This document shows positions 7,040 to 20,816 of a stretch of DNA of 38,981 nt, one piece after another. Within the stretch, counting starts at the first letter, position 1. The number at the start of each line of letters is the position of its first letter. The DNA comes from a virus. A program made the translations under genes and the position numbers. The notes under the pieces were generated by a model, which was not told the origin of the DNA, did not search any database, and saw only the letters and a list, made by a program, of their open reading frames with translations. The stretch is from positions 1 to 38,981 of IMG/VR virus record IMGVR_UViG_3300044716_000161. The stretch is one strand, 5' to 3'.

Positions 7040-7216
7040 TTACGGTTTATCCTCAACAAGAAGGCCTTCATAAATGGGGTAATCAGAGGTGAGAACCACA
7101 ACTGTTTTGACCCAGCCGATGCTGGAGTATGTCCAGGTAGCACCGTTAGCCGTAAAGGTTTGACCAATCGTAGGCGCAGGGCTGGTAGGAAAGGTTGGAT
7201 AAACAGGGTGTGACAC
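7040..7216 (-). CDS. Small virion-like protein with GTG start
   Basis: A 58-aa protein that starts at GTG (7214-7216), overlapping the endolysin stop by one base (TAGTG), and ends 2 bases before the small terminase start. The sequence has the pattern PTIGQTFTANGATWTYSS followed by GWV, a short beta-rich motif met repeatedly in tail and neck proteins of cyanophages. A small structural or host-binding role is likely but unproven. It has no ATG, so it is easily missed by automatic gene finding. Confidence 0.65.
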   Translation of the reverse strand: MSHPVYPTFPTSPAPTIGQTFTANGATWTYSSIGWVKTVVVLTSDYPIYEGLLVEDKP

Positions 7217-8181
7217 TATGTGTTCTCCTTAATAAGATTGATAAGCTTTTGCGGGTAGCTTGGATCTGTAGCATACCCTTCTTGTTGAAGCAATCGACAG
7301 CATTCCTCAGCAGAAGTGGCACGATTGACACCCTCATACCCTTTGTAATCGTCGTACCAAAGGGAAATCAGGTGTTGAATGCACTCTTCAGGGGTATTAT
7401 AGTCCTTAAACGTGTCTTTAATGGTGACCCATTTGCCGTTAAGGAACTCTTTTGTTTCTGTTGTGGTACCAGGACTGCCTTTAATGCCAAAGAAGTTGTT
7501 TTTTCCAGAAGTATGTTTACCGTAACCGGACTCAAGGGCCCATTGAGCAGCAACAACCTCGGGAAACTTAACACCTTTTGCCTTGGCAACGGCCATGACA
7601 CCCTTCCAAGAGTTATCAAAGGCTGATTTAGGTTTAACAGAGCGGAAGGTCATGTACCATCCACTGCCACTGCCCTCCACCATCCACCGTTTTGACCAGT
7701 TTTTCCAGGTATAGGCCACATTTTTACCCCCAACACCTGGCTGTGGATAGCCTCCATTGGCGTTATCCATCTCACCATAGGGGTCGTGGCAGAGCACGTG
7801 CGTATCGGTAATGCCAATCACCAGAACCCAGTGTCCTCCTCCCTTTGGAGCATAGGCTGGGCCCTTATGAAGCACACCACAGGCAACAGGATAGCCTGCT
7901 TCAAGCTCCTTTTCAATGGTTGTGCGGGTTCCATTCTTAAAGAAGGAAGCACGTACTCCATACTCAAGTGCTGCCCTTGTGTGGGAAGTGAATTGGGTGG
8001 TATCTCCGTACCTAAGAACAGTACGGAGGTAATCATCGTCTGCGTTAGAACCCTGAAGGGCTTCAGGAAGCAGATATTTGATGGCCATCGCACATGTTGA
8101 TGAAAAACACATGCGATCGCCGTGGGTGGTCTGGCTATCAAGCTGAGGGTAGTACTGCTTTACTGGCAGTAGGATGTTCAC
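7216..8181 (-). CDS. Two-domain endolysin: C39-like peptidase plus glucosaminidase
   Basis: A 321-aa cell wall hydrolase. The N-terminal half looks like a C39-type cysteine peptidase, with Cys25 in RMCFSSTCAM, His117 in GGGHWVLVIGI and Asp133 in CHDPYGE as the likely triad. The C-terminal half (190-321) is a GH73-type glucosaminidase with AQWALESGYGKHTSG (catalytic Glu217) and NNFFGIKG. It would cut both peptide and glycan bonds. No signal peptide is seen, so it needs a holin; the 74-aa membrane protein immediately upstream is the natural partner. The start is GTG at 8181 in a GTGA overlap with that gene. T7 uses an amidase placed elsewhere, so this lysin is a replacement. Confidence 0.88.
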   Translation of the reverse strand: MNILLPVKQYYPQLDSQTTHGDRMCFSSTCAMAIKYLLPEALQGSNADDDYLRTVLRYGDTTQFTSHTRAALEYGVRASFFKNGTRTTIEKELEAGYPVACGVLHKGPAYAPKGGGHWVLVIGITDTHVLCHDPYGEMDNANGGYPQPGVGGKNVAYTWKNWSKRWMVEGSGSGWYMTFRSVKPKSAFDNSWKGVMAVAKAKGVKFPEVVAAQWALESGYGKHTSGKNNFFGIKGSPGTTTETKEFLNGKWVTIKDTFKDYNTPEECIQHLISLWYDDYKGYEGVNRATSAEECCRLLQQEGYATDPSYPQKLINLIKENT

Positions 8182-8554: not shown

Positions 8555-8682
8555 CGGCCTTGGCCACGGGTTTGTTTCCTGCCATGGTTAGCAAGGGACC
8601 GTTTGCCCTGGCCCTGCCGAGTAAGTTTCGGAGGACCGGGAACGTGGGTCACCTTATTCATGGCGCCTTTTGGTTTAGCCAT
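8551..8682 (-). CDS. Tiny basic protein (43 aa)
   Basis: A 43-aa protein of unknown function, net strongly positive, rich in Gly, Gln, Arg and Lys, with repeated QGQGKR and RGQGR motifs at the end. The ATG at 8682 overlaps the preceding stop (TAATG), and its own stop overlaps the next start, so it is embedded in a translationally coupled string. Such coupling supports a real gene despite the small size. Confidence 0.6.
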   Translation of the reverse strand: MAKPKGAMNKVTHVPGPPKLTRQGQGKRSLANHGRKQTRGQGR

Positions 8683-8933
8683 TAGCAGTCCACAGCATCA
8701 GCAAATTCGGGCAGGGACTTGAGGTGCTCGTATGCCTGTTTGATTGGGTTCGGACCATCAAGTTGATATTTAAAAGCAAAAACGTGGTCTGCAAATGGAG
8801 GTTTTTGTGTGTCCGCGTAAAAACGCGCACTGGCTACGACGCGTTGTTTTGTCATGGAAACATCATCAACGCGAACATAAGCCGCTGGAATGGTGACGCC
8901 ATATTCAGTTGTAATGTCCTTGAAAAGTGCCAT
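8682..8933 (-). CDS. Spike-linked small protein, copy 2
   Basis: An 83-aa protein of unknown function, paralogous to the 81-aa protein at 10659-10904. Both start M-A-L, have G-V-T near residue 12 and Y-x-R-V near residue 20, and end almost identically (IKQAYEHLKSLPEFADAVDC here). Each follows a tail fibre or spike gene, so it may be a spike chaperone, an adaptor or a small tail protein. The start is 2 bases past the spike stop. The C-terminal Asp-Cys is shared by both copies. Confidence 0.8.
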   Translation of the reverse strand: MALFKDITTEYGVTIPAAYVRVDDVSMTKQRVVASARFYADTQKPPFADHVFAFKYQLDGPNPIKQAYEHLKSLPEFADAVDC

Positions 8934-8935
8934 AG

Positions 8936-10636
8936 TTAGTCGGTCCAGTAAATACCTTCAAGTGTAAAGGTTACGTCAGTCAAGACAACGCCAGCAGCAA
9001 TGGTCGCCCCGTCATACCTAAGCAGGCCTGGTGTAAAAAGAGTGCCAAAATTTCCAGTCATCATGTAAGCACGGGTGGTTAAGGTTGGCTGATCTAGCGT
9101 GACTCTAGATCTGGAAATAATGGTTCCTACCACATCAGGCAGACGACGGAAGCTAGATGCCCTGCTTCCCATACTTTCGAAAGAGGCACCTCCTGTCGTT
9201 GTATAATTAAATTTGATTGTTTCCTGTTCTAGTTTCCAAGATAAATCTGGATAGTTGTTGTTAACGGCACCAGTGGAGCGGAGACGCGCAACCGATGGCA
9301 TGGTGTAGATCCTGTTGGCATCCATGACCAGCTGCGTGGTGGCGCTACCGTCATACAAAATGCCAAAGTCTGGCGTATAACCAGTAATGCCTGTTGTATT
9401 TAGCATTCTATTCCGTGCCACGGATACAGCGGTAAGAGAACCCAATGCAAAGTACATGTAGGAAGCCGAAGCAGCACCCGCCATAACACCATTAACCTTA
9501 TTATCGGCAATGGTTACATACCGGCTGGCGCCGGTGACGCTGATCCCAATTCGAATAGCTTTATCAATGACGTTGTTAAAGACTTCTGCGTGGTCGGTAA
9601 AGGTTATATGTATAGCTCCAATTGCTGTACCATAACCGCCAGAGTTCTCGACAATATTATCGGTAATCTTTATCCGTTGATTGATGAGACCAGAAGCGCC
9701 AAGACTTGCAATTCCGATGAAGGAATCAGATGCTAACTCTGGTCCTTCCACAATGTTTCCACTGATAATGACATCTTGGGCATTTGCCGGAAAAGGGTCG
9801 CCTGGGTCGTCATATTGTGCATAGATGCCATTTCTGCAATAATAAACTCGGTTATTGGTGACAATCCAGTTGCTAGGAGCATGGCCATCAATGCCAGTCC
9901 ACTTAGGAACATTTGAAACAATATTATTGCTAACAATGCAGTTAGTGCTGCGGGCTGAGTTGGCCAGCGTCTTAGTTGGGTCTCTGGTAACAAATATGCC
10001 GTAGTAGTTGCTGCCTGTGGATGCCGTAATATTGTGGACTCGGTTGCTAATGATGTGCCCTTCAATTACGGAAAGAAAACCAATTCCGCAGTAGCCACAG
10101 TTGACGACACGGTTGTCGTTGACCAAGACATCTTTAGCGTAATTTACAAAAATGCCAAATCCAGCAAAACCATCAATCCTACAGTTACGGAAAGTGATGT
10201 TAGAAAGAGGCGATACCGAACTGGTGCCAGAAACTAGGATGGCGCTGTCGGGCGTATTTTGAGTTGAAACGGTAGACCCTTCGGAGCCGCCAGCAAAGAC
10301 AACGCTATCAATAATTACATTTGATGCTGTGATTGTGATTATTGCATTGCTTGGACTTGTTGCTCGTTTAAGCTTGCCTGGACCAGTCATAACTAGTGCC
10401 GATGAGATCGACAATGATGTGACTAGAAAAGTTCCACCAGGGATGATGACTTGGCTGGCACCACTATTTAAAGCGGCTTGAATCGCAGCCGTATCATCAG
10501 CAACCCCGTCCCCAACAGCCCCAAAGTCCTTAACGGATACAACGTCCCTGAGCTTATTCTCAACGGTCCTCTGGACACCTCCAGCCCCCGAAGGGGTGAA
10601 GGCGCCAAGGTCGGAGATGTTTCGTGTTTTAGTCAT
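8936..10636 (-). CDS. Tail spike with pectate lyase-like beta-helix
   Basis: A 566-aa likely receptor-binding or polysaccharide-degrading spike. After a short N-terminal segment, DFGAVGDGVADDTAAIQAAL (residues 37-56) marks the start of a right-handed parallel beta-helix of the pectate lyase/GH28 superfamily, with repeated N-N-x-V and I-x-N-N turns up to about residue 430. It lacks the T7 fibre head-binding domain found in the 903-aa protein, so it must attach to the virion another way, perhaps through that fibre or via the small protein coded next. The linker (GAG-x-V-x-RT ... KL-x-D-x-VS) is shared with the 903-aa fibre, suggesting duplication. Cell-surface polysaccharide is the probable target. 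Confidence 0.85.
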   Translation of the reverse strand: MTKTRNISDLGAFTPSGAGGVQRTVENKLRDVVSVKDFGAVGDGVADDTAAIQAALNSGASQVIIPGGTFLVTSLSISSALVMTGPGKLKRATSPSNAIITITASNVIIDSVVFAGGSEGSTVSTQNTPDSAILVSGTSSVSPLSNITFRNCRIDGFAGFGIFVNYAKDVLVNDNRVVNCGYCGIGFLSVIEGHIISNRVHNITASTGSNYYGIFVTRDPTKTLANSARSTNCIVSNNIVSNVPKWTGIDGHAPSNWIVTNNRVYYCRNGIYAQYDDPGDPFPANAQDVIISGNIVEGPELASDSFIGIASLGASGLINQRIKITDNIVENSGGYGTAIGAIHITFTDHAEVFNNVIDKAIRIGISVTGASRYVTIADNKVNGVMAGAASASYMYFALGSLTAVSVARNRMLNTTGITGYTPDFGILYDGSATTQLVMDANRIYTMPSVARLRSTGAVNNNYPDLSWKLEQETIKFNYTTTGGASFESMGSRASSFRRLPDVVGTIISRSRVTLDQPTLTTRAYMMTGNFGTLFTPGLLRYDGATIAAGVVLTDVTFTLEGIYWTD

Positions 10637-10658
10637 AAGTTCTTACGAATTAAAAGGA

Positions 10659-10904
10659 TCAGCAGTCCTCGGCATCCGAGAACTCAGGGAGAGTTTTTAG
10701 ATATAAATAAGCTTGCTTGATAAAATTGTCATCCATTTCTGGTGCAAAAGAAAACTCTTTTGTGGTCAGGGGAATTTCTCCTGTTGCTGCTTGGTACGCA
10801 AGGATGAATCCAAGTTCCTCCTTGGTTCCAAAGACGTTAGAGACGCGCAGGTAGCCATCGGAAACGGTGACACCAGCGTAAGAAAATGTTTGAGTCAGGG
10901 CCAT
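10659..10904 (-). CDS. Spike-linked small protein, copy 1
   Basis: An 81-aa protein of unknown function, paralogous to the 83-aa protein at 8682-8933: the C-terminus NFIKQAYLYLKTLPEFSDAE parallels NPIKQAYEHLKSLPEFADAV, and both end D-C. I chose the ATG at 10904 because it gives the same M-A-L start as the paralogue; a TTG 24 bases upstream is the alternative. It lies between the two spike genes and belongs with the first. A chaperone or accessory tail role is inferred from its place. Confidence 0.8.
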   Translation of the reverse strand: MALTQTFSYAGVTVSDGYLRVSNVFGTKEELGFILAYQAATGEIPLTTKEFSFAPEMDDNFIKQAYLYLKTLPEFSDAEDC

Positions 10905-10949
10905 TGCCTTAATGGGATAGGTGGTCAAATCAATCGGGCAAGAAGAAGG

Positions 10950-13661
10950 TCAGATCCACCTCCCCACAGCCGTGACAGAGTATTGCCTGGCTGCACTGGT
11001 TTGGCTTGTAACTGCGTTGCCAAAGAACACGCAACTTGCCGTAGTTTTTGAGCTAATTGTGGCGGCAAACGCAGAGCCATTGGCTGGGGTGACTGTTATC
11101 TCCGGCGTCGCCGTGAACGCCTGCGGGTAAGTCCAGGTAATGCCTCCGGTTCGAAAGCCCCCTAAGAACGCCGTGCTAATTGCAGCGGTGTCTGCAACGA
11201 GATGCCTGGAGACCATTGTTCCATCGGCCAGGATGGCCCACGACCCGTTGGCGTTGCTGCCTGCTTGAGGTGGGACGATGTATCGAGTTGCCGCCAGCGT
11301 TGTCCCAGATTTGGTGACAAGCGAGTACGGCGACGTGTTAAACTTGGGATTGCGGATGTAGATGTAGGACGCATCCGTCCCAGGCGCCACCAAGGAATAG
11401 GCGATTAACCTAGTAAGGCCGCTAAGGGTGCCCCTGATTGCAAGACCGTCCAGCACCCAAGCGTTGGGGCGGCTGGAGTTTTCAAATGCGTTGACAATAG
11501 TTGTGACGTTACTGTTTAGCGTTGCGTCAAGTCCGTCAACAACAATCTGGTAGGCCCTGGCAATGTTCGCGGTTAGCGCGGATGAAAGGTTGGAGACTAT
11601 TGAAGGGGCTGTTGAACCATCGCCAACGATGACGCGGCAATCCTTGAATAAGCATTCCCCTCCTACTAACTCGTGATAACCAAGGGGCGCTGTTGTAGAG
11701 CTTGGCCAGCTATGGACATCGCACCCGATTGCTGCAATCCGTTCCCCTGCGAGGCCAATTCGACCGTAAATTGTGCAATTTTTATAATGCGAGTCCAGGG
11801 TGTTGCCGTGAAAATCGGCGTTATAGACAGCAGACGCTGGGTCGTTGGACAGTACAGAGTCTTCAACATAAACGTAGCGGCAAGGCGCGGCACCATTATC
11901 CGCATCGCCCCCGGTCGTCACGGCATGACGCCCGCCATAAGCATCCACATTGCGAATGGTGATGTATTGGCTGTTAGAAACTGAGATGCCGTAGTTTCCA
12001 CCTACTCCAGTGTAGGGCGTATAGTAAAAACCAGATTCAACTAAAACGTTGTAGCACTTGTTGATAACTAAAGCCGCTTGATTGCCTGTAGTGCGTACTC
12101 GCCTTGGCTTGATCAAGACATTGTCTGCATATTGCACTCGCAGCGCGAAGACGCCAGCGCCAGTGAACGACGGGCCATCTATGACAACGCGGATGCCGCT
12201 GGACTTGAACACCTTGTCAGTGGTCACGCCTGAGTAGCTAGTCAGCAGATTGGATTGCAAAGTGACGTTGCTGCCGGACACTCCAGCAACCCGCGCAAAC
12301 TCTCCGTCGTAGTAGTTGGTACGGTGGACCGAGTAGGAGGAAGTTACCGAGTTCCAAAGAATCAGTAGGTCATCAGCTGCCAATCCAGAAACGGACGACA
12401 TCGTTACTGTTGACCCTCCCGCTGTAGCCGCTGCAGAGATGTATCCCACCTCGGTCAGTGATCCAGTGACATTAACAAATGCACTGCCCGTGCCGTTTAG
12501 CGTGAAGTTGCCATACATTTCGATGGCGCCAACGTTTAGCGTCGTGCCATAGTTGTATGTTTTGCCGGAAAAGTCAACAATAGCTTTTTGGTTTGCCGAT
12601 GCGTAAGTCAACGCATCTTGCAGCTTTGTCGCTTCATCTGACCCGTCACCAACGCAGCCAAAGTCGGCAAACGAGACTGCATCCTTTAACTTACTGTCAA
12701 TCGTCCGAGCAACCGCACCAGCACCAGCCTGCGTGAACGAAGCCCCAACAACAGCTCCAGGCGCAAACTTCTGGGTACTGATCGTTCCATCTTGAATCGT
12801 CGAACCAGGCACATTGACCATGCTAAACGAGCTATAACTCAGAACCTCAACAACATCCCCTGCCTCAAGCGCAACAAGTCCGTCAATGCTGGTTCCGTTA
12901 CTGGCGGTGTAATCAACACCACGTTGGAGGAGAACACCGTTGAGGTAGACGAATTCAAGGTTGACCGTATAGGTAAGAGTGGCTGCATTATCATCGGCAC
13001 CACTGAGGCTGGTCTCACCACCAACAGCAGTCTTTCTCCACCGCAGCACGTTGGCATTGGCTGAGGAGTCTTGCCACGTAGCACCGTTCCAAACGCGCAT
13101 GACGTTGGAGGTGCTATTGAAGTACAAATCCCCTACGGAACGAGCATTGCCGTATGGATCTGTCGCAGGATCTGTTGCGTAAGCTCCGTAAAAGATGCTG
13201 CGGAACTGTACCAGTGGTGCGCTAGTTGATGTTTCTACCCAGTTTTTAGTGGCGGCATCTTGAGCGCTAACAGGATCAGCCATGTTGGTGATCCGAAACC
13301 CGCCCATATTAAGGATACCAAGAAGAGTATCCCCTAGCTTACTAATGCTACGTGCTGTAAGCTCTTGAATGGAATAAAGAAATTGAGTAAAGTTATTATT
13401 TAGATCAACTGCTTTAATTGAAGAGCCAGCAAAGAACGTAGCTTCGGTCTCTTCGTTTGCAGTTTCTCGATAGATAACGATAGCAGTGCCGTTGGCTGGA
13501 GCCGACAGGAACTGAATGGTACTGGCATTAACAAAGACAAAGGCAGTAGTAGGCGCTCCATTAAGGGTTACCTTTACGTCTGCCTCATCTAGATAAAGAA
13601 AAGACAGGGAATAGAGCGTAGTAGATCCATTCCCCGTGTAAATGTTTTGGACAATTGCCAT
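10950..13661 (-). CDS. Tail fibre with T7 gp17-like N-terminus and beta-helix body
   Basis: A 903-aa primary tail fibre. The N-terminal about 150 residues are the T7 gp17-like tail-binding domain (NIYTGNGSTTLYSLSF at the start, then FFAGSSIKAVDLNNNFTQ). A linker leads to DFGCVGDGSDEATKLQDAL near residue 335, the start of a pectate lyase-like beta-helix, and a beta-rich C-terminal domain follows. It anchors to the tail and binds or digests the host surface. The ATG overlaps the stop of the gp16-position gene (TAATG). The C-terminal two thirds (about 10950-12700) look richer in G+C than the N-terminal part and neighbours, a sign of module exchange. Confidence 0.92.
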   Translation of the reverse strand: MAIVQNIYTGNGSTTLYSLSFLYLDEADVKVTLNGAPTTAFVFVNASTIQFLSAPANGTAIVIYRETANEETEATFFAGSSIKAVDLNNNFTQFLYSIQELTARSISKLGDTLLGILNMGGFRITNMADPVSAQDAATKNWVETSTSAPLVQFRSIFYGAYATDPATDPYGNARSVGDLYFNSTSNVMRVWNGATWQDSSANANVLRWRKTAVGGETSLSGADDNAATLTYTVNLEFVYLNGVLLQRGVDYTASNGTSIDGLVALEAGDVVEVLSYSSFSMVNVPGSTIQDGTISTQKFAPGAVVGASFTQAGAGAVARTIDSKLKDAVSFADFGCVGDGSDEATKLQDALTYASANQKAIVDFSGKTYNYGTTLNVGAIEMYGNFTLNGTGSAFVNVTGSLTEVGYISAAATAGGSTVTMSSVSGLAADDLLILWNSVTSSYSVHRTNYYDGEFARVAGVSGSNVTLQSNLLTSYSGVTTDKVFKSSGIRVVIDGPSFTGAGVFALRVQYADNVLIKPRRVRTTGNQAALVINKCYNVLVESGFYYTPYTGVGGNYGISVSNSQYITIRNVDAYGGRHAVTTGGDADNGAAPCRYVYVEDSVLSNDPASAVYNADFHGNTLDSHYKNCTIYGRIGLAGERIAAIGCDVHSWPSSTTAPLGYHELVGGECLFKDCRVIVGDGSTAPSIVSNLSSALTANIARAYQIVVDGLDATLNSNVTTIVNAFENSSRPNAWVLDGLAIRGTLSGLTRLIAYSLVAPGTDASYIYIRNPKFNTSPYSLVTKSGTTLAATRYIVPPQAGSNANGSWAILADGTMVSRHLVADTAAISTAFLGGFRTGGITWTYPQAFTATPEITVTPANGSAFAATISSKTTASCVFFGNAVTSQTSAARQYSVTAVGRWI

Positions 13662-16600
13662 TAGAATTCAGCCAATTGCTTAAGGTCTTCTTTGATTGTT
13701 GACTTAGTAAAGTCTCCCCTTAGTGCCTTGATGTTGGTTTCCCTCTTTTCCATGACAAGCGCACGGTAGGACGGATCCTCATCATAAAGAACATTAAGGG
13801 CCTGTGTCTTGTATTTACTAATGATACCGCTGATCTGTTTGATGTGTGGAGGTGTGTTGTCCTCGTTAGCACCAACAATCATTTCAGCAGTAATTGGCCG
13901 ATTCTTATAGGCCTTGGCCATGTTCTGCCATTCCTTACGCCCAATCACCTGCTCCAATTTCTTGGGCAGTCCACTCTGGAAGAGCAGTTGACTCAGGCGT
14001 TCCCGATGTTCTGGAGCAAGACGAACCCCATTCTTACCGGTCTTGATGATGTCATTGGATGGGTAACCAATCTCTGATAGCGTCTTAACGAGCTTATTGT
14101 TCTCCACATCATAGATGCGGATAGGACTCAAGGCATTATAGAGCCCACCAGCATTGGAGTGAAGTTTCTTACCAGTGATCCAAGAAGTAACACTAGGAAG
14201 GTCTTTGCCGTAGCCAGGTGCTGCTGCAATGAGCATACGGTCAAGTTCGTTCCTTGTTTCCTTCATATACGGATCAAGGGAATTGGCAAATGCTCGACGA
14301 ACACCAGCATAAGGAACCATGGTATTAGCAGAGTTCAGCAGGAAGTTCAACGCACTAGGATCTTGAAGGGTCTTAGGGTTGATCAATTCACCAAGCGTAC
14401 CCAGACCAGACAGGAAACTCTTATCAGTATAACCTGCCATGATTGAATAAACAAGCTGTCGCATGACCTGACCAGCAGCATCAGCACCGCCAATCTTCAC
14501 AAGCCTAACTGCATCTGCCACAATAGACAGCATGGAGTTGACTGGTTCAAATGACGCATACGATACCCATTTGTTTCCAACGCGAATTGACATTGCAGGA
14601 CGACCTTCTTCACGCCAAGCCTTACGTTCGTTAGGATCAAACGGAAGGTTACCGGTGATGTCGGTTTGAGTGGCCATTGTAAGAAGTGCTCCTACAAGGA
14701 ATGCACCTGTGGCTTCACGTCCCTTAAGCTCTTCAACAAGCAGATAATCTCCACTCTTCTCAGCAGCTTCTAGGGTTCGGCGGAAGTTGCTCATCTGACG
14801 ATTGATCAGCGGCACGTGTTCCAGACCATACCCCAGCAGGTTAGCAGGTGTGCGAACAAAGGGAATAAACAGCTTTCCAAACGGAGCCTGATCTACAGCG
14901 TTAGCCACTGCATTCATAAAGCTGCCTGGATCTTGTTGGAATGCCACACGTTCCGCATAATCAAGCAAATCCTTATCAAGGATACGACCAGACTGAGGAT
15001 CAATGCCCTTAGAATACTCATCAATGTACTTCTTGAACAGCATATCCACATCGCCCTTTTCAGCAGCATGGACCTGGGCCAGGTACATCGCATGACTGTT
15101 CATCCGATAACGAGCAGCCAGGGTCTTAAAGAAGTCATCAGCACCAAGCAGCGCTCGACTGGGCCAACTGAACCATGGGTTATTGAGCATGGTATAGCTT
15201 TTTTCAAGCATTCCAGCTGCAATCTTTTCCGAATCAGTACGAGCGGCCATGTTAAGCTGCTCAAGAATGGCCTTGGTTTCAAAATCCTCTACAACAAACT
15301 TAGCATTGTAGTTGACAGAATCACCAGTCTTCAAGGTAGTAGCAGCCACTTCCCATGCGTCCTGGATACCCTTATACATGCTGTGGAGGCCAGCAGTAGC
15401 AGAGTTACGCAGGATAGGATCGTTCTTAATAACACCTCGCAGATAGGTGGAAAAGGGTCGTTCCAGGATGGCATAACTGTTGCCAAACATGTTCCGAAGG
15501 TGGGTAATAGGACCCGACAACATCGATTGATACATATTGGTCATGGCCTGTTTAAAGCCAATACCACGAGCAGCATCCCAGAATCGAACAGTCTTGGACG
15601 GATCACCACCGGCCAATACCATTGCTCGAATCAGAGCATCCATTTCTCCAGCAGCATTTGGATCGGAGCTGCGTTGAAGTTTCTTTACCTTAAGTGCCCA
15701 TTCCTTAACTTCACCCATACTAAGGGCAGCCTTGGCCTCGGCACCAGCTTCATCGGCAACAGACCCAACGTTTTGCTTGAAGATATTCAGACCACTACCA
15801 TAACGATAGGCGGTTTGCTTATGGAGATCCAACAGGAACACCAGACGATCCACCACTCGATCAAAGCTATTGCCGTCAAATTCACCTGCTTCACGCAGGG
15901 CAGCGGCATTGGTAGCCAGATCGTTGATTTGAAGAGCAGTGTCACGTACCAGAGCCTTGGTAACCAGCACACCCTTCTTGGAAAGGTAACGGCCGGATAC
16001 AGAATCAGGATCAATGACCTCTGCTTCCTTCATCATCTGGTAGATGGTTTGGTTGTCCAGAGGCTCACCAAGAGCATTACGGAAGTCTTCCAACTCCTGA
16101 GCAGCACTCTTAACAATACCATCAACCGAGGTCATAGCTGCCTTGGCTGCTTCTTGAAGATCCATCCGGCTAGAAAGTTTCCGAATGACATCCTCTGCTC
16201 CACCTTTGATGTTGGAGATACGGAATTGAGCATCTGTCATCATCCGTACGGATCCACCAATATTCATCGGGGCAGAACGTACTGCCTTTGGAATAGTAGG
16301 ATCACCACTGGGGGCCTTGGTGTTGTTAAGGCTTCGGTGTTGCTGACCGATTGCATCCTCAACAGGACCAGTTTTAATGGTAGCTGCTGCATCCTGAGGA
16401 AGGAGTTCCTTAGCATCGTCTGGATCATAGCCTCTTGCGATAGCTTCGTCCAGCTCTGCCATGCTCACACGCACGTCCCCAAGGGTCTCCTGAAGGGCTC
16501 TGAACTTAGGATCGGTCTCATCTATCCCTGCCTCCTTAAAAGCGGCTTCCTGGTCCAGGTACCGACGTTCCAGATCCAGCAGTTGGTTCATTTCCTCCTG

Positions 16601-17644
16601 GTGTGCCTCACCCCATCGCATCGACTCGGCTTCCACAGCCTTGACGTTATCCGCGTCCATCTGCTTCATAGCCTGTTCCGATGCCTTGAGGCCATCAGCC
16701 ATAGCTTCAGATTCAGACTTGCCAGCCTTCAATGCCGCCTGAGCAGCCTTACGGCCGAACAGCAGCCATCCAGCACCATCAATAACGGCACCAAATGCAC
16801 CGCCTTCAAGTACACCCTTGATCTTTGCTTGGAAGATGTCATCATCCTTTTCTGCTGCTAGGGCAAACAGAACCGAATCATGAAGGGGGTGGTTCTCAGG
16901 GACAAGGTTTCGGACCATGGTAGAAAAGTTACCATCTTCCGGCTTGGTGAGCATGAAGTCTGCCACAGCTCCAGGTACCAGACCAGAAGCCACAGCACCT
17001 TTGATTCCCTTTCCTTTTGTTCCCAACTGAATGAGAGCCTTAGGGGCCTTGGTTGCAACTGCTCTGGTTAGAACAATCAGTTCTGCCAGCTTAAGGGCAG
17101 CCTGACCAATCTCTGTTTTAGGCTTTTGAAGGCCAAAGGAGTAGGCAGCAGAGGTATAACGATCATTCCAAGGATCCTCGGTGGCCTTGGTTTTATTACC
17201 AATAACCTTGTTGACACCTACCTTAAGGGCATCACCAACAACATCAAAGGTATCGAGGGTAGCTTCAACAGCGCCAACACCAGCATTCATGACAACCCGT
17301 GAGGTCTCAGCCAGAACACCAGTATCTTTGTTGATAGCTGTTTCAGCTTTGGTCCGGATTTTCTTGGTTTCTTGCTTGGTTTGCTTGTATTGCTTTTGAA
17401 GATCGGTACCTAGAATGGTATCAAGCGCACCAGTAATCGGTTCTCCAAGATCTGTGCTCAGTGCTTGTTGAATAGGTTTCAGAGGATTGACCGTTTTGGG
17501 TCCCGTTTCTCCTTGTGCCTTTTGCCGCTGTTGCGTTTGTTTCTTCTTTTGTTCCTCTTCTTCTAGTTGTTGTTGTTTGTATTCAGGGTTGTGGTAATAA
17601 TCATCAACAGGCCCAAGGCCGACAGGACCATTAAGTTGAGGCAT
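13661..17644 (-). CDS. Internal virion (ejection) protein, T7 gp16 position
   Basis: A 1327-aa internal core protein, matching T7 gp16 (1318 aa) in length and place. It starts with a Gln/Glu/Lys-rich coiled segment (residues 22-45), followed by long helical Ala/Lys-rich regions and several hydrophobic stretches (for example near residue 210 and residue 1000) that could enter the membrane during ejection. I see no lytic transglycosylase motif at its N-terminus, unlike T7 gp16; that domain sits in the preceding gene instead. With gp14- and gp15-like proteins it should form the channel that carries DNA into the cell. It is followed by the fibre gene with a TAATG overlap. Confidence 0.85.
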   Translation of the reverse strand: MPQLNGPVGLGPVDDYYHNPEYKQQQLEEEEQKKKQTQQRQKAQGETGPKTVNPLKPIQQALSTDLGEPITGALDTILGTDLQKQYKQTKQETKKIRTKAETAINKDTGVLAETSRVVMNAGVGAVEATLDTFDVVGDALKVGVNKVIGNKTKATEDPWNDRYTSAAYSFGLQKPKTEIGQAALKLAELIVLTRAVATKAPKALIQLGTKGKGIKGAVASGLVPGAVADFMLTKPEDGNFSTMVRNLVPENHPLHDSVLFALAAEKDDDIFQAKIKGVLEGGAFGAVIDGAGWLLFGRKAAQAALKAGKSESEAMADGLKASEQAMKQMDADNVKAVEAESMRWGEAHQEEMNQLLDLERRYLDQEAAFKEAGIDETDPKFRALQETLGDVRVSMAELDEAIARGYDPDDAKELLPQDAAATIKTGPVEDAIGQQHRSLNNTKAPSGDPTIPKAVRSAPMNIGGSVRMMTDAQFRISNIKGGAEDVIRKLSSRMDLQEAAKAAMTSVDGIVKSAAQELEDFRNALGEPLDNQTIYQMMKEAEVIDPDSVSGRYLSKKGVLVTKALVRDTALQINDLATNAAALREAGEFDGNSFDRVVDRLVFLLDLHKQTAYRYGSGLNIFKQNVGSVADEAGAEAKAALSMGEVKEWALKVKKLQRSSDPNAAGEMDALIRAMVLAGGDPSKTVRFWDAARGIGFKQAMTNMYQSMLSGPITHLRNMFGNSYAILERPFSTYLRGVIKNDPILRNSATAGLHSMYKGIQDAWEVAATTLKTGDSVNYNAKFVVEDFETKAILEQLNMAARTDSEKIAAGMLEKSYTMLNNPWFSWPSRALLGADDFFKTLAARYRMNSHAMYLAQVHAAEKGDVDMLFKKYIDEYSKGIDPQSGRILDKDLLDYAERVAFQQDPGSFMNAVANAVDQAPFGKLFIPFVRTPANLLGYGLEHVPLINRQMSNFRRTLEAAEKSGDYLLVEELKGREATGAFLVGALLTMATQTDITGNLPFDPNERKAWREEGRPAMSIRVGNKWVSYASFEPVNSMLSIVADAVRLVKIGGADAAGQVMRQLVYSIMAGYTDKSFLSGLGTLGELINPKTLQDPSALNFLLNSANTMVPYAGVRRAFANSLDPYMKETRNELDRMLIAAAPGYGKDLPSVTSWITGKKLHSNAGGLYNALSPIRIYDVENNKLVKTLSEIGYPSNDIIKTGKNGVRLAPEHRERLSQLLFQSGLPKKLEQVIGRKEWQNMAKAYKNRPITAEMIVGANEDNTPPHIKQISGIISKYKTQALNVLYDEDPSYRALVMEKRETNIKALRGDFTKSTIKEDLKQLAEF

Positions 17645-17726: not shown

Positions 17727-20700
17727 TTATCGGAATGTTCCAGCTTCGATTTGTTGCTTAATTCGTGCTGCCAATCGCTGCCAATTACGATATGGAGTCA
17801 TGGCATTACTACCAGCAGGGGCTGGAGCAAGGAAATCAATGCTTGCAATAGTTCCGTCTACTGATCTGACCCGTCCAGAACCGCCTTGTTTACCAAGAAC
17901 AACTCCAGGACGAATGCTTTCACCTTCCCGTACATCAATACTATCAAGGTGTGCATAGAGCACATCCACAGTATCTCCAGTTGCTGGATCGGTAGATTCT
18001 ACGACAATCATATTGCCATAGTTCCCATTGTTGCGTCGGATCTCTTTGACCCTGCCTGGGAGAACAGCACCGAACTGTTTATCAGCAAACCAAAGATCCA
18101 TGCCGGGTTGGAAAGAATTGCCTGGCGTTTCAATACGGATGGACTGAACATTAGTGGGTGAGAAGTTTGCCCGCCCACCTCGGGCCGAATTAAAACCCGA
18201 TCGTTGCATCTCCGCAAATGCCCTACGTGCTTCTCCCATGTATTGAAGGTAGCGTTTATCACGATAGGCACCCCAAGCGTTCTTACCGCCTGATTTCAAG
18301 ATGCTAGACATAACCCTAGCGTTGGTTTCTGGATCCTTAAGATCATCCGCACTACTAAGACCGTAGTTACGAAGACGTTGAGGTCCAAGATCACCAATCA
18401 TATTAATTTGCCACAATCCGTAGGAATCATCTCCTGTGTTTGGGTTCAAATTACGAACACCAGACTTGCCAGTAGATTCTGCCATACCAATTGCAGCCAT
18501 GATTACTGCTTCTTCTCCGCCAAGACCTTGATCCATAGCGAGACGAATGTAATCATTAATGCCTACAACCGCACCGGGTTTCAGATCAGTAGTAGGCTCT
18601 GTCCCTTTCCCAGACACTTCCACGCGTCTCCGGGCTCGTTGTTGAGCTTCAACAATTCTTCGCAGCTGAAGTAGTTGCTGTTGGGGATTGTTTCCGGAAG
18701 TGGCATACCGCTCGGCGGCACGAGGAGCGACAGCGCTGTATTCAGCCAGACGCCTTGCTTCAGGAGTGGATAGGATAGGGCTTGGATCAATACCATAATG
18801 TTGTGCTTGATGGGTCAGCAGACGAACCGCGCCCCCATTGCTGCCTGCCAAAGCCTGGGCTTTAGAGGTCAATGGTTGGTTTGATTGAAGACGTTGGATG
18901 TTGTCTTCTACCTCACCCTTGGACATCAACATAGTGGAACCAGATGTATAGCTGCGCAATTGAATGGTGCGTGGATCAAATCCAGAGGCATCACGAACGC
19001 GGCCAGCCACAGCACTTGTGCTATAATTTCCAGCAATGTTGGGGTTTCTGCTCAGAGGCTTTGGAGTCCATCCTTTGGTGGTTGGATCCTGCCTAAAGTA
19101 TTTGCTTACCTGACTGGGTATCTTAGAAAGAACAAACTGGTTAATGTCATTATCATCAACCTGCTTGTTATTTGCAAGCCAGTAGTTGTAAGCAAGGAGT
19201 GTCAAATCATTGGAGATCTGACGAACATGAAGAGGATGCTTATCTGGATTACCAAAAGGATCCAGGGAAAGAGCACCAGCTGCTTCAAGGTGAGCCTTAA
19301 CGGCTTTGTCGATGTCTTCACCAAATTGTTTGTTAAAGCCACCCCGAGAGTCAGCTTCAGCAAAGTTCTTCAGTTCATTGAACATCTGTTCCGTCAGTTT
19401 ACCATTCTGGAAATCAGCTTCAAGCTGACGCTCAGATGGACGCATTCCTTGAGAAATGCCTTGACGATACTGTTGATACAGGGTATAGTCAACGTTAGCA
19501 GGTTCAGCAAGAAGCTGTCCTCGCATTTGGAGAGCCTTTTCACTGCCTTGATCTGCCAGGGTACCAAGAATGCTAATTGTTTCCTGACGAAGATTCTTTA
19601 ATTGATCCGCAGGTAGATTAACATCTTGACGAGCCCTCTCCAGGATATTCATTGCCTTGTCCGCATTACGGTCAAGTTCTCTATCCTGACGCGCAGCAGC
19701 CTGATCGGCCTTTGTACGTACAGACTCTAGGGTTTTATCAAAGCTGTCTGCGTATGCTGCTCCAAGCGTAATGCTGTTTGGATCGTCTGCAATCTTTCGT
19801 ACTTGAGAAAGCTTGTCAAGAAGGTCTTCAGCAATGTCTTGGGGCATGGTGGAGATGGCATTAAGCGCACCTTCCATGGCACGATCAGCAGCAGCACCAC
19901 GACTCAGACCACCCTTAACTTGGTAATCAGTTACCGAACGTTGATAGGATTCAAACAGCCCATCAACGGTTTGATCTGGATTGCTGAACTCACCTTGAAC
20001 CTCACCATCCGTATCAGATACAGCTGTTTCTCGATTTTTACGAGATACCTCTTGAATCTTATTAGCAAAGACCTGGCTACGAATGTTTTGAAGAGTTGGA
20101 GCCAGATGCTCGGCCAGGATGACAGGGTTGATGTTGGTAACACCAGATGCCTTAACAAACGAAGCCTGGGCAACCTCAAGGACAGCGTTGATTTCTGCTG
20201 GTGTAGAGGCTTGTGAAGGAGCAATGAACCGCCCATCAGGAAGTGGAATGGTTTGCTCGGTCTGCTCCATAAAGGCCAGCATAGCAGCCTGTGAATTGTT
20301 GGCGGCTCTTTTTGCCAATCCAACTGCTTGTCCATAGGCTCGCCATCCAGAAATAGAACGGCTTTCTGCCTTAAACTGTTCTGCTACTTCAACCTGACCT
20401 TGTTGTGTGAGGTTGTTAATTACCTGTCCATCAGACTCAGCAGCCTTTTGAAGCATTCCAACTTCTTGCTGATACTTATCTTTAAAGGCAGGGTTCAGTT
20501 CAACCGTACCATTAAGAACATCAGCAACACCGAGGTTGTATTCATTCTCGGCCTGGGCTTTGGTGCGTTCCTTCAGATTAGTAAACAGGGTTTCACTAAA
20601 GCTGGTAAGGGCTTCAATTTCATTCTGTTTGATCTGATTCTGAAAGTTTAACGCCCGGTTGGTTTGTTCGAGGGCTTGAGTCTGTACGGCAGCCTGGCGC

Positions 20701-20816
20701 TCGATTTTATTTGATAGGGCCTGACTTGGATCATAGGCCTGCTGTGGAGCAAAGGATGTGCCTTGCTGAGGACCTCTCAGAGCAACCTGAGGACCACGGG
20801 GTTCATAGACTGCCAT
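17727..20816 (-). CDS. Internal virion protein, gp15 position, with transglycosylase and M23-like domains
   Basis: A 1029-aa ejection protein, longer than T7 gp15 (747 aa). The first 700 residues are helical, with Gln-rich coiled segments (AQTQALEQTNRA region). Residues about 755-860 form a lysozyme/SLT-like domain with AAIGMAESTGKSG (likely catalytic Glu) and DDSYGLWQINMIGD. Residues about 885-1015 resemble an M23 (LytM) domain, with GMDLWF and YAHLD, but the usual first His ligand and the final H-x-H are absent (ASIDF), so that domain is probably inactive and used for binding. In T7 the transglycosylase is on gp16. It likely opens the peptidoglycan during DNA ejection. The gene starts 6 bases past the gp14-like stop. 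Confidence 0.85.
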   Translation of the reverse strand: MAVYEPRGPQVALRGPQQGTSFAPQQAYDPSQALSNKIERQAAVQTQALEQTNRALNFQNQIKQNEIEALTSFSETLFTNLKERTKAQAENEYNLGVADVLNGTVELNPAFKDKYQQEVGMLQKAAESDGQVINNLTQQGQVEVAEQFKAESRSISGWRAYGQAVGLAKRAANNSQAAMLAFMEQTEQTIPLPDGRFIAPSQASTPAEINAVLEVAQASFVKASGVTNINPVILAEHLAPTLQNIRSQVFANKIQEVSRKNRETAVSDTDGEVQGEFSNPDQTVDGLFESYQRSVTDYQVKGGLSRGAAADRAMEGALNAISTMPQDIAEDLLDKLSQVRKIADDPNSITLGAAYADSFDKTLESVRTKADQAAARQDRELDRNADKAMNILERARQDVNLPADQLKNLRQETISILGTLADQGSEKALQMRGQLLAEPANVDYTLYQQYRQGISQGMRPSERQLEADFQNGKLTEQMFNELKNFAEADSRGGFNKQFGEDIDKAVKAHLEAAGALSLDPFGNPDKHPLHVRQISNDLTLLAYNYWLANNKQVDDNDINQFVLSKIPSQVSKYFRQDPTTKGWTPKPLSRNPNIAGNYSTSAVAGRVRDASGFDPRTIQLRSYTSGSTMLMSKGEVEDNIQRLQSNQPLTSKAQALAGSNGGAVRLLTHQAQHYGIDPSPILSTPEARRLAEYSAVAPRAAERYATSGNNPQQQLLQLRRIVEAQQRARRRVEVSGKGTEPTTDLKPGAVVGINDYIRLAMDQGLGGEEAVIMAAIGMAESTGKSGVRNLNPNTGDDSYGLWQINMIGDLGPQRLRNYGLSSADDLKDPETNARVMSSILKSGGKNAWGAYRDKRYLQYMGEARRAFAEMQRSGFNSARGGRANFSPTNVQSIRIETPGNSFQPGMDLWFADKQFGAVLPGRVKEIRRNNGNYGNMIVVESTDPATGDTVDVLYAHLDSIDVREGESIRPGVVLGKQGGSGRVRSVDGTIASIDFLAPAPAGSNAMTPYRNWQRLAARIKQQIEAGTFR

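Follow-up and report, generated by a model that had tools for sequence, protein, structure and literature searches.

Small proteins encoded behind two beta-helix spikes of a T7-like podovirus as probable trans-acting partners of the spikes' receptor-binding halves

Two small proteins, S1 and S2, each encoded behind a beta-helix spike of a T7-like podovirus, probably act in trans, each as a dedicated partner for the receptor-binding half of its upstream spike; with moderate confidence, we take them to be assembly chaperones and possibly transient caps. The window analyzed here, the whole stretch of DNA, covers all 38,981 bases of a complete IMG/VR record. Judged by its genes, its source is a T7-like podovirus akin to cyanophages: the primase/helicase is 64% identical to its counterpart in Synechococcus phage P60, and the matches of the internal virion protein are mainly to Synechococcus and Prochlorococcus phages. 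On the minus strand, the genes follow in the order internal virion protein, spike 1, S1, spike 2, S2, DUF6496 protein, 74-aa protein, and endolysin (Table 1). The sequence-only reading had described two beta-helix spikes, each followed by a protein of about 82 aa from one family; all four minus-strand open reading frames are indeed present, and the small proteins are homologous. An SD-like AAGG lies immediately 5' of the S1 start codon, and tandem translation of spike and small gene would make each small protein beside its own spike. A scan for promoters and terminators gave results no better than shuffles. Elsewhere in the window, the endolysin (7216-8181) combines a C39-like peptidase domain and a glucosaminidase domain in one protein, and an internal virion protein at 17727-20816 carries a lysozyme-like SLT domain plus an M23 peptidase domain.

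Table 1 Features of the spike region, in window coordinates
Feature	Position	Strand	Basis or remark
Internal virion protein	13661-17644	-	Directly before spike 1 in gene order
Spike 1, 903 aa	10950..13661	-	T7-type anchor, branching-like domain, beta-helix receptor-binding part
Spike 1 T7 gp17-type tail anchor, residues 8-147	13221..13640	-	PF03906 Phage_T7_tail, E 3.9e-24
Spike 1 T4 gp10/CBA120 TSP4-like (branching) domain, residues ~201-278	12828..13061	-	Predicted fold: AF2 model, Foldseek/VIA
S1, 81 aa	10659..10904	-	phrog_18037; ATG at 10904
S1 conserved C-terminal helix motif (..IKQAYLYLKTLPEFSDAEDC)	10662..10724	-	DNA homology with L103 returns within it
Spike 2, 566 aa	8936..10636	-	N-terminal peptide of ~30 aa, then beta-helix; own tail anchor absent
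Spike 2 N-terminal peptide MTKTRNISDLG...	10541..10636	-	Kept in sister phages with exchanged C-termini
S2, 83 aa	8682..8933	-	phrog_18037; start 2 nt past spike 2 stop
S2 conserved C-terminal helix motif (PIKQAYEHLKSLPEFADAVDC)	8685..8747	-	Homology with L165 returns at the S2 stop codon
74-aa protein, function unknown	between DUF6496 protein and endolysin	-	phrog_15106

The T7 tail-binding domain is found in spike 1 alone, as had been read from the sequence. Residues 528-687 of spike 1 give a Gp49 pectate-lyase-like match, and residues ~390-790 match the PDB tailspikes 4ru4 and 4ru5; spike 2 matches PF12708 at residues 33-271, plus PF13229. The linker with DFG-x-VGDG that the two spikes had been said to share is real (53% identity across 45 aa), but the sharing is not special, because many pectate-lyase-like folds ordinarily begin with such a core and the stretch is also matched by fungal glucanases, alginate epimerases, and the phi29 appendage. 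We therefore rejected this generic beta-helix start as a mark of special kinship between the spikes. In another phage, contig L104 (4767-6092) joins an unrelated, P22-like N-terminus to a receptor-binding part shared with spike 1 (69% identity over 278-636); this contig stops short of the small-gene position.

S1 and S2 share 43% identity (E 1e-17), and their sole profile match is phrog_18037 (S1 residues 7-80, E 2.5e-11; S2 residues 7-82, E 1.2e-9), which is matched by S1, S2, and all 74 aligned members with a best E of 7.5e-24. They are thus members of a PHROGs v4 family whose database entry carries no function, and for which the present work offers a candidate one. A Pfam search of S1 and S2 at E 0.1 returned 0 families, searches of Pfam, NCBIfam, and the PDB with the family found no relative, and a literature search, mostly outside subscription journals, found no report on phrog_18037. 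The AlphaFold2 model of S2, built on an alignment of 71 sequences from which GenBank rows were left out, predicts four strands and a C-terminal helix with a mean pLDDT of 88. Clear matches of this predicted fold in BFVD are to uncharacterised phage proteins, those of Klebsiella phages among them; a fold search of the PDB gave no match at E <= 0.001, no Z above 3.7, and no known chaperone. The C-terminal helix is highly conserved among members from phages with unrelated spikes, and a near-identical C-terminal motif occurs in members that were found via their spikes, so that the conservation is not solely an artefact of motif-based harvesting.

The family is widespread among phages with podo-, sipho-, and myovirus tails, and a spike or fibre gene almost always stands immediately upstream of the member. 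Small genes on viral contigs mostly begin no more than ~30 nt past the stop codon of an ORF of 350-920 aa; PF12708 is matched by 37 of 70 such upstream ORFs, and beta-helix and many tail-spike and tail-fibre PHROGs are matched too. The same order of spike and small gene is found in GenBank phages of several groups, again with all three tail types. One-to-one pairing of each small protein with its upstream spike, as proposed from the sequence, is therefore strongly supported by adjacency and, as described below, by co-inheritance across phages. The outcome named beforehand as refuting it, with most homologues lying apart from spike genes, did not occur. Two exceptions (L032 and L044) have the small gene between a P22-type portal gene and the spike, and two others (L055 and L063) have it near terminase and portal genes. 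Short ORFs of ~82-90 aa that lie near the portal and small gene in P22-like phages (L032 3015-3263, L044 3035-3283, L055 4087-4359) may encode GroES-type co-chaperonins. Divergent members are also found on Clostridia / Ruminococcus contigs (L101 563-880, L102 6001-6276), between a tail-fibre-like ORF and lysis-like ORFs. A place for the small gene in a lysis cassette was considered and rejected, since it lies away from lysis genes in other phages. When complete spikes were found through the spike itself, only 8 of ~85 (~9%) had a family member behind them. The statement that every Taipeivirus tailspike has a member behind it proved wrong: among the small ORFs tested, 1 of 3 in KWBSE43-6 and 2 of 3 in Bullseye_ER20 belong to the family.

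Co-inheritance was analyzed in 89 distinct complete pairs of a spike or fibre with a small gene, including the two of the window, with small-protein similarity computed without the last 24 residues and the spike C-terminus taken as the last 200 residues. Where C-termini were alike (0.78-0.95) and anchors unrelated, small-protein similarity was 0.72-0.90 in 6/6 pairs; where anchors were alike and C-termini unlike, it averaged 0.19 against a background of 0.14 and exceeded 0.5 in 1/68 pairs. Two further pairs with C-terminal similarity of ~0.4 had small proteins at background. This selected-pair contrast was used in place of an overall Mantel-type correlation between the small protein and the spike parts, which was weak throughout, highest for the N-terminus, and uninformative because most pairs are at background. 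By this contrast, what the small protein travels with is the C-terminal, receptor-binding portion of the spike and not its anchor.

Linkage alone could yield such co-inheritance, because the small gene comes immediately after the spike gene. In recent swaps, however, the downstream junction lies not between the two genes but inside the small gene, in its final 45-80 nt (window/L103, L056/L190, L027/L031, L010/L028, L020/L078), with L045/L057 as an exception; between the window and its sister phage L103, DNA homology resumes at 10702, within the C-terminal helix motif of S1. Both the linkage and these junctions would suit a passenger, that is, an unrelated short gene hitch-hiking since its 3' end is a convenient recombination joint. 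We regard this as very unlikely, since the protein sequence is conserved over distant phage groups, including Vibrio, Burkholderia, and Klebsiella phages, and the gene stands next to spikes in very different genome layouts. From 8854 onward, contig L103 runs from within spike 2 straight into the interior of the endolysin gene, so that S2 and the 74-aa gene are missing, through either a deletion or a chimeric assembly; as the contig may be a chimera, the absence of a small gene behind its spike 2 was not counted as evidence.

A natural replacement in L165, which is ~95-96% identical to the window on both flanks, bears on what the partner would do. Homology restarts at the start of spike 2, ends after ~57 codons, and returns at the S2 stop codon; the replaced segment encodes a spike C-terminus with Peptidase_S74 (PF13884, residues 487-538, E 3.9e-8, above the curated cut-off) and has no small gene. 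Peptidase_S74 is an intramolecular chaperone found in endosialidases and tailspikes. It occupies in L165 the same swap-module slot that holds the end of spike 2 and S2 in the window; it is part of the spike polypeptide there, whereas S1 and S2 are separate proteins, and a Pfam profile search found no PF13884 match in S1, S2, spike 1, or spike 2. S1 and S2 would do in trans what the C-terminal S74 does in cis. Folding is known to depend on a C-terminal chaperone domain of this kind: a KP32 spike deprived of its own was insoluble and inactive (PMC8262889). S74 was present in 5/75 spikes without a small gene versus 0/66 with one, a contrast that agrees with this but is weak (one-sided p ~0.04). 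Most comparable spikes have neither, as do spike 1 of L165 and both spikes of L172, which indicates that neither is universally required and that the small protein is not generally needed. L246 (9203-13310) has no beta-helix spike or small gene and instead encodes a 439-aa T7-type fibre and several short tail-like ORFs; the C-terminal part of its internal virion protein is identical, and its endolysin 98% identical.

That many spikes fold without such a partner would also fit an inhibitor or lysis-stage blocker, which masks the glycan site in the cell or on debris and is dispensable for folding. The same co-inheritance would be expected of it, and tail-fibre chaperones of Alteromonas phages, which are unrelated, have been suggested to act as transient caps, one of them being dispensable for fibre function (PMC10579305). 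The exact replacement by an S74 chaperone in L165 favours assembly over inhibition only, and we consider an inhibitor rather improbable. The co-inheritance is equally predicted if the small protein is a permanent virion component, staying as a tip or side accessory on the mature spike and adding receptor binding, in the manner of T4-type gp38 adhesins or Mu Tfa; Mu Tfa is reported as bound to the fibre tip in work cited in PMC10579305. Such a role appears unlikely to us, though worth keeping in view, given a C-terminal helix that is highly conserved despite unrelated spikes and Pfam and PDB searches that found no adhesin domain or fold match.

We favour the assembly partner, in which S1 and S2 would help the spike trimer to assemble and perhaps stay as transient caps; the co-inheritance and the replacement in L165 are observed, while help with folding, binding, and capping are inferred. 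A comparable system is that of Alteromonas phages V22 and A5, whose DUF4376 tail-fibre chaperones/caps are likewise encoded by a small gene downstream of the receptor-binding protein and exchanged with it across tail types (PMC10579305). Those proteins have 176-239 aa, an alpha-helical core, and tail fibres as partners, in contrast to the 81 and 83 aa of S1 and S2 and their beta-helix spike partners, and neither the Tfa/Caudo_TAP nor the DUF4376 Pfam profile matched S1 or S2 at E 0.1.

The two cassettes had been read as a duplication, which the comparison with other phages contradicts. Among 73 family members, S2 ranks 24th-32nd in similarity to S1, and S1 ranks 15th-29th in similarity to S2; each is closer to many small proteins of other phages than to its sibling, and on these ranks tandem duplication was rejected. 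Homology between the spikes is confined to the 45-residue beta-helix start. With S1 and S2 standing apart within the family and nothing but this generic start in common between the spikes, it is more likely that the two cassettes were acquired separately. By contrast with S1 and S2, two tandem family members that follow one ORF in L007 (447-1004) are mutual nearest relatives.

With no anchor of its own, spike 2 had been expected to need another route to the virion, and the gp10/TSP4-like domain of spike 1 is the likely answer. In the predicted model, residues ~201-278 match 9f4b_FA, a 607-aa baseplate chain of Klebsiella phage KP1 (VIA Z 8.6), TSP4 7rfv (8.1), 9d84, B2 Gp48/Gp49 (8.0), and T4 5iv5_AC (6.8). 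The match is to the predicted fold only, a sequence search with the domain giving no match, and T7 gp17 N-termini have the same fold (Z ~7), so that the fold match alone is no proof of branching. The domain is present in the first spike at 11/11 loci (6 distinct contigs) where it precedes a second spike with a short N-terminus, against 19/39 others, a figure that is approximate owing to contig ends. Spike 1 is anchored through its T7-type domain, and its branching domain is probably the site to which spike 2 attaches by way of its short N-terminal peptide. An anchor-branched plan of two receptor-binding proteins is known from KP32-type Klebsiella phages and from G7C gp66/gp63.1 (Latka 2019, PMC6872550). 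The window resembles it in a first protein with a T7-type anchor and gp10-like domain and an anchorless second one with a short conserved N-terminal peptide; it differs in being from a T7-like cyanophage relative and in having a separate small partner gene for each.

The anchorless spike 2 is also what would speak for the small protein as an adaptor attaching the spike to the virion. This was one of three roles, with chaperone and cap, that the sequence-only reading had offered, and the one that we find hardly credible: the small protein tracks the C-terminal half and not the anchor, L165 lacks it while retaining an identical N-terminus on spike 2, and a small protein also accompanies spike 1, which already has a T7 anchor. 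Chaperone or cap is the best supported part of that proposal.

Tailspikes determine phage host range and are produced recombinantly as capsule depolymerases. On the favoured reading, phages exchange the C-terminal half of the spike and its small gene as a single specificity module, flanked on one side by a conserved N-terminal part of the spike and on the other by the small gene's 3' end, which is likewise conserved. More tentatively, and with some doubt, phrog_18037 may consist of chaperone-caps that serve spikes in trans, a family widespread but so far unrecognised and with its own fold, the coding region of its C-terminal helix doubling as the 3' recombination joint of the module among unrelated phages. 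If many spikes need or carry a separate downstream partner, a spike expressed alone could be insoluble or uncapped, and annotation should handle the spike and the small gene as one module. An abundant family so far annotated as unknown also gains a candidate function.
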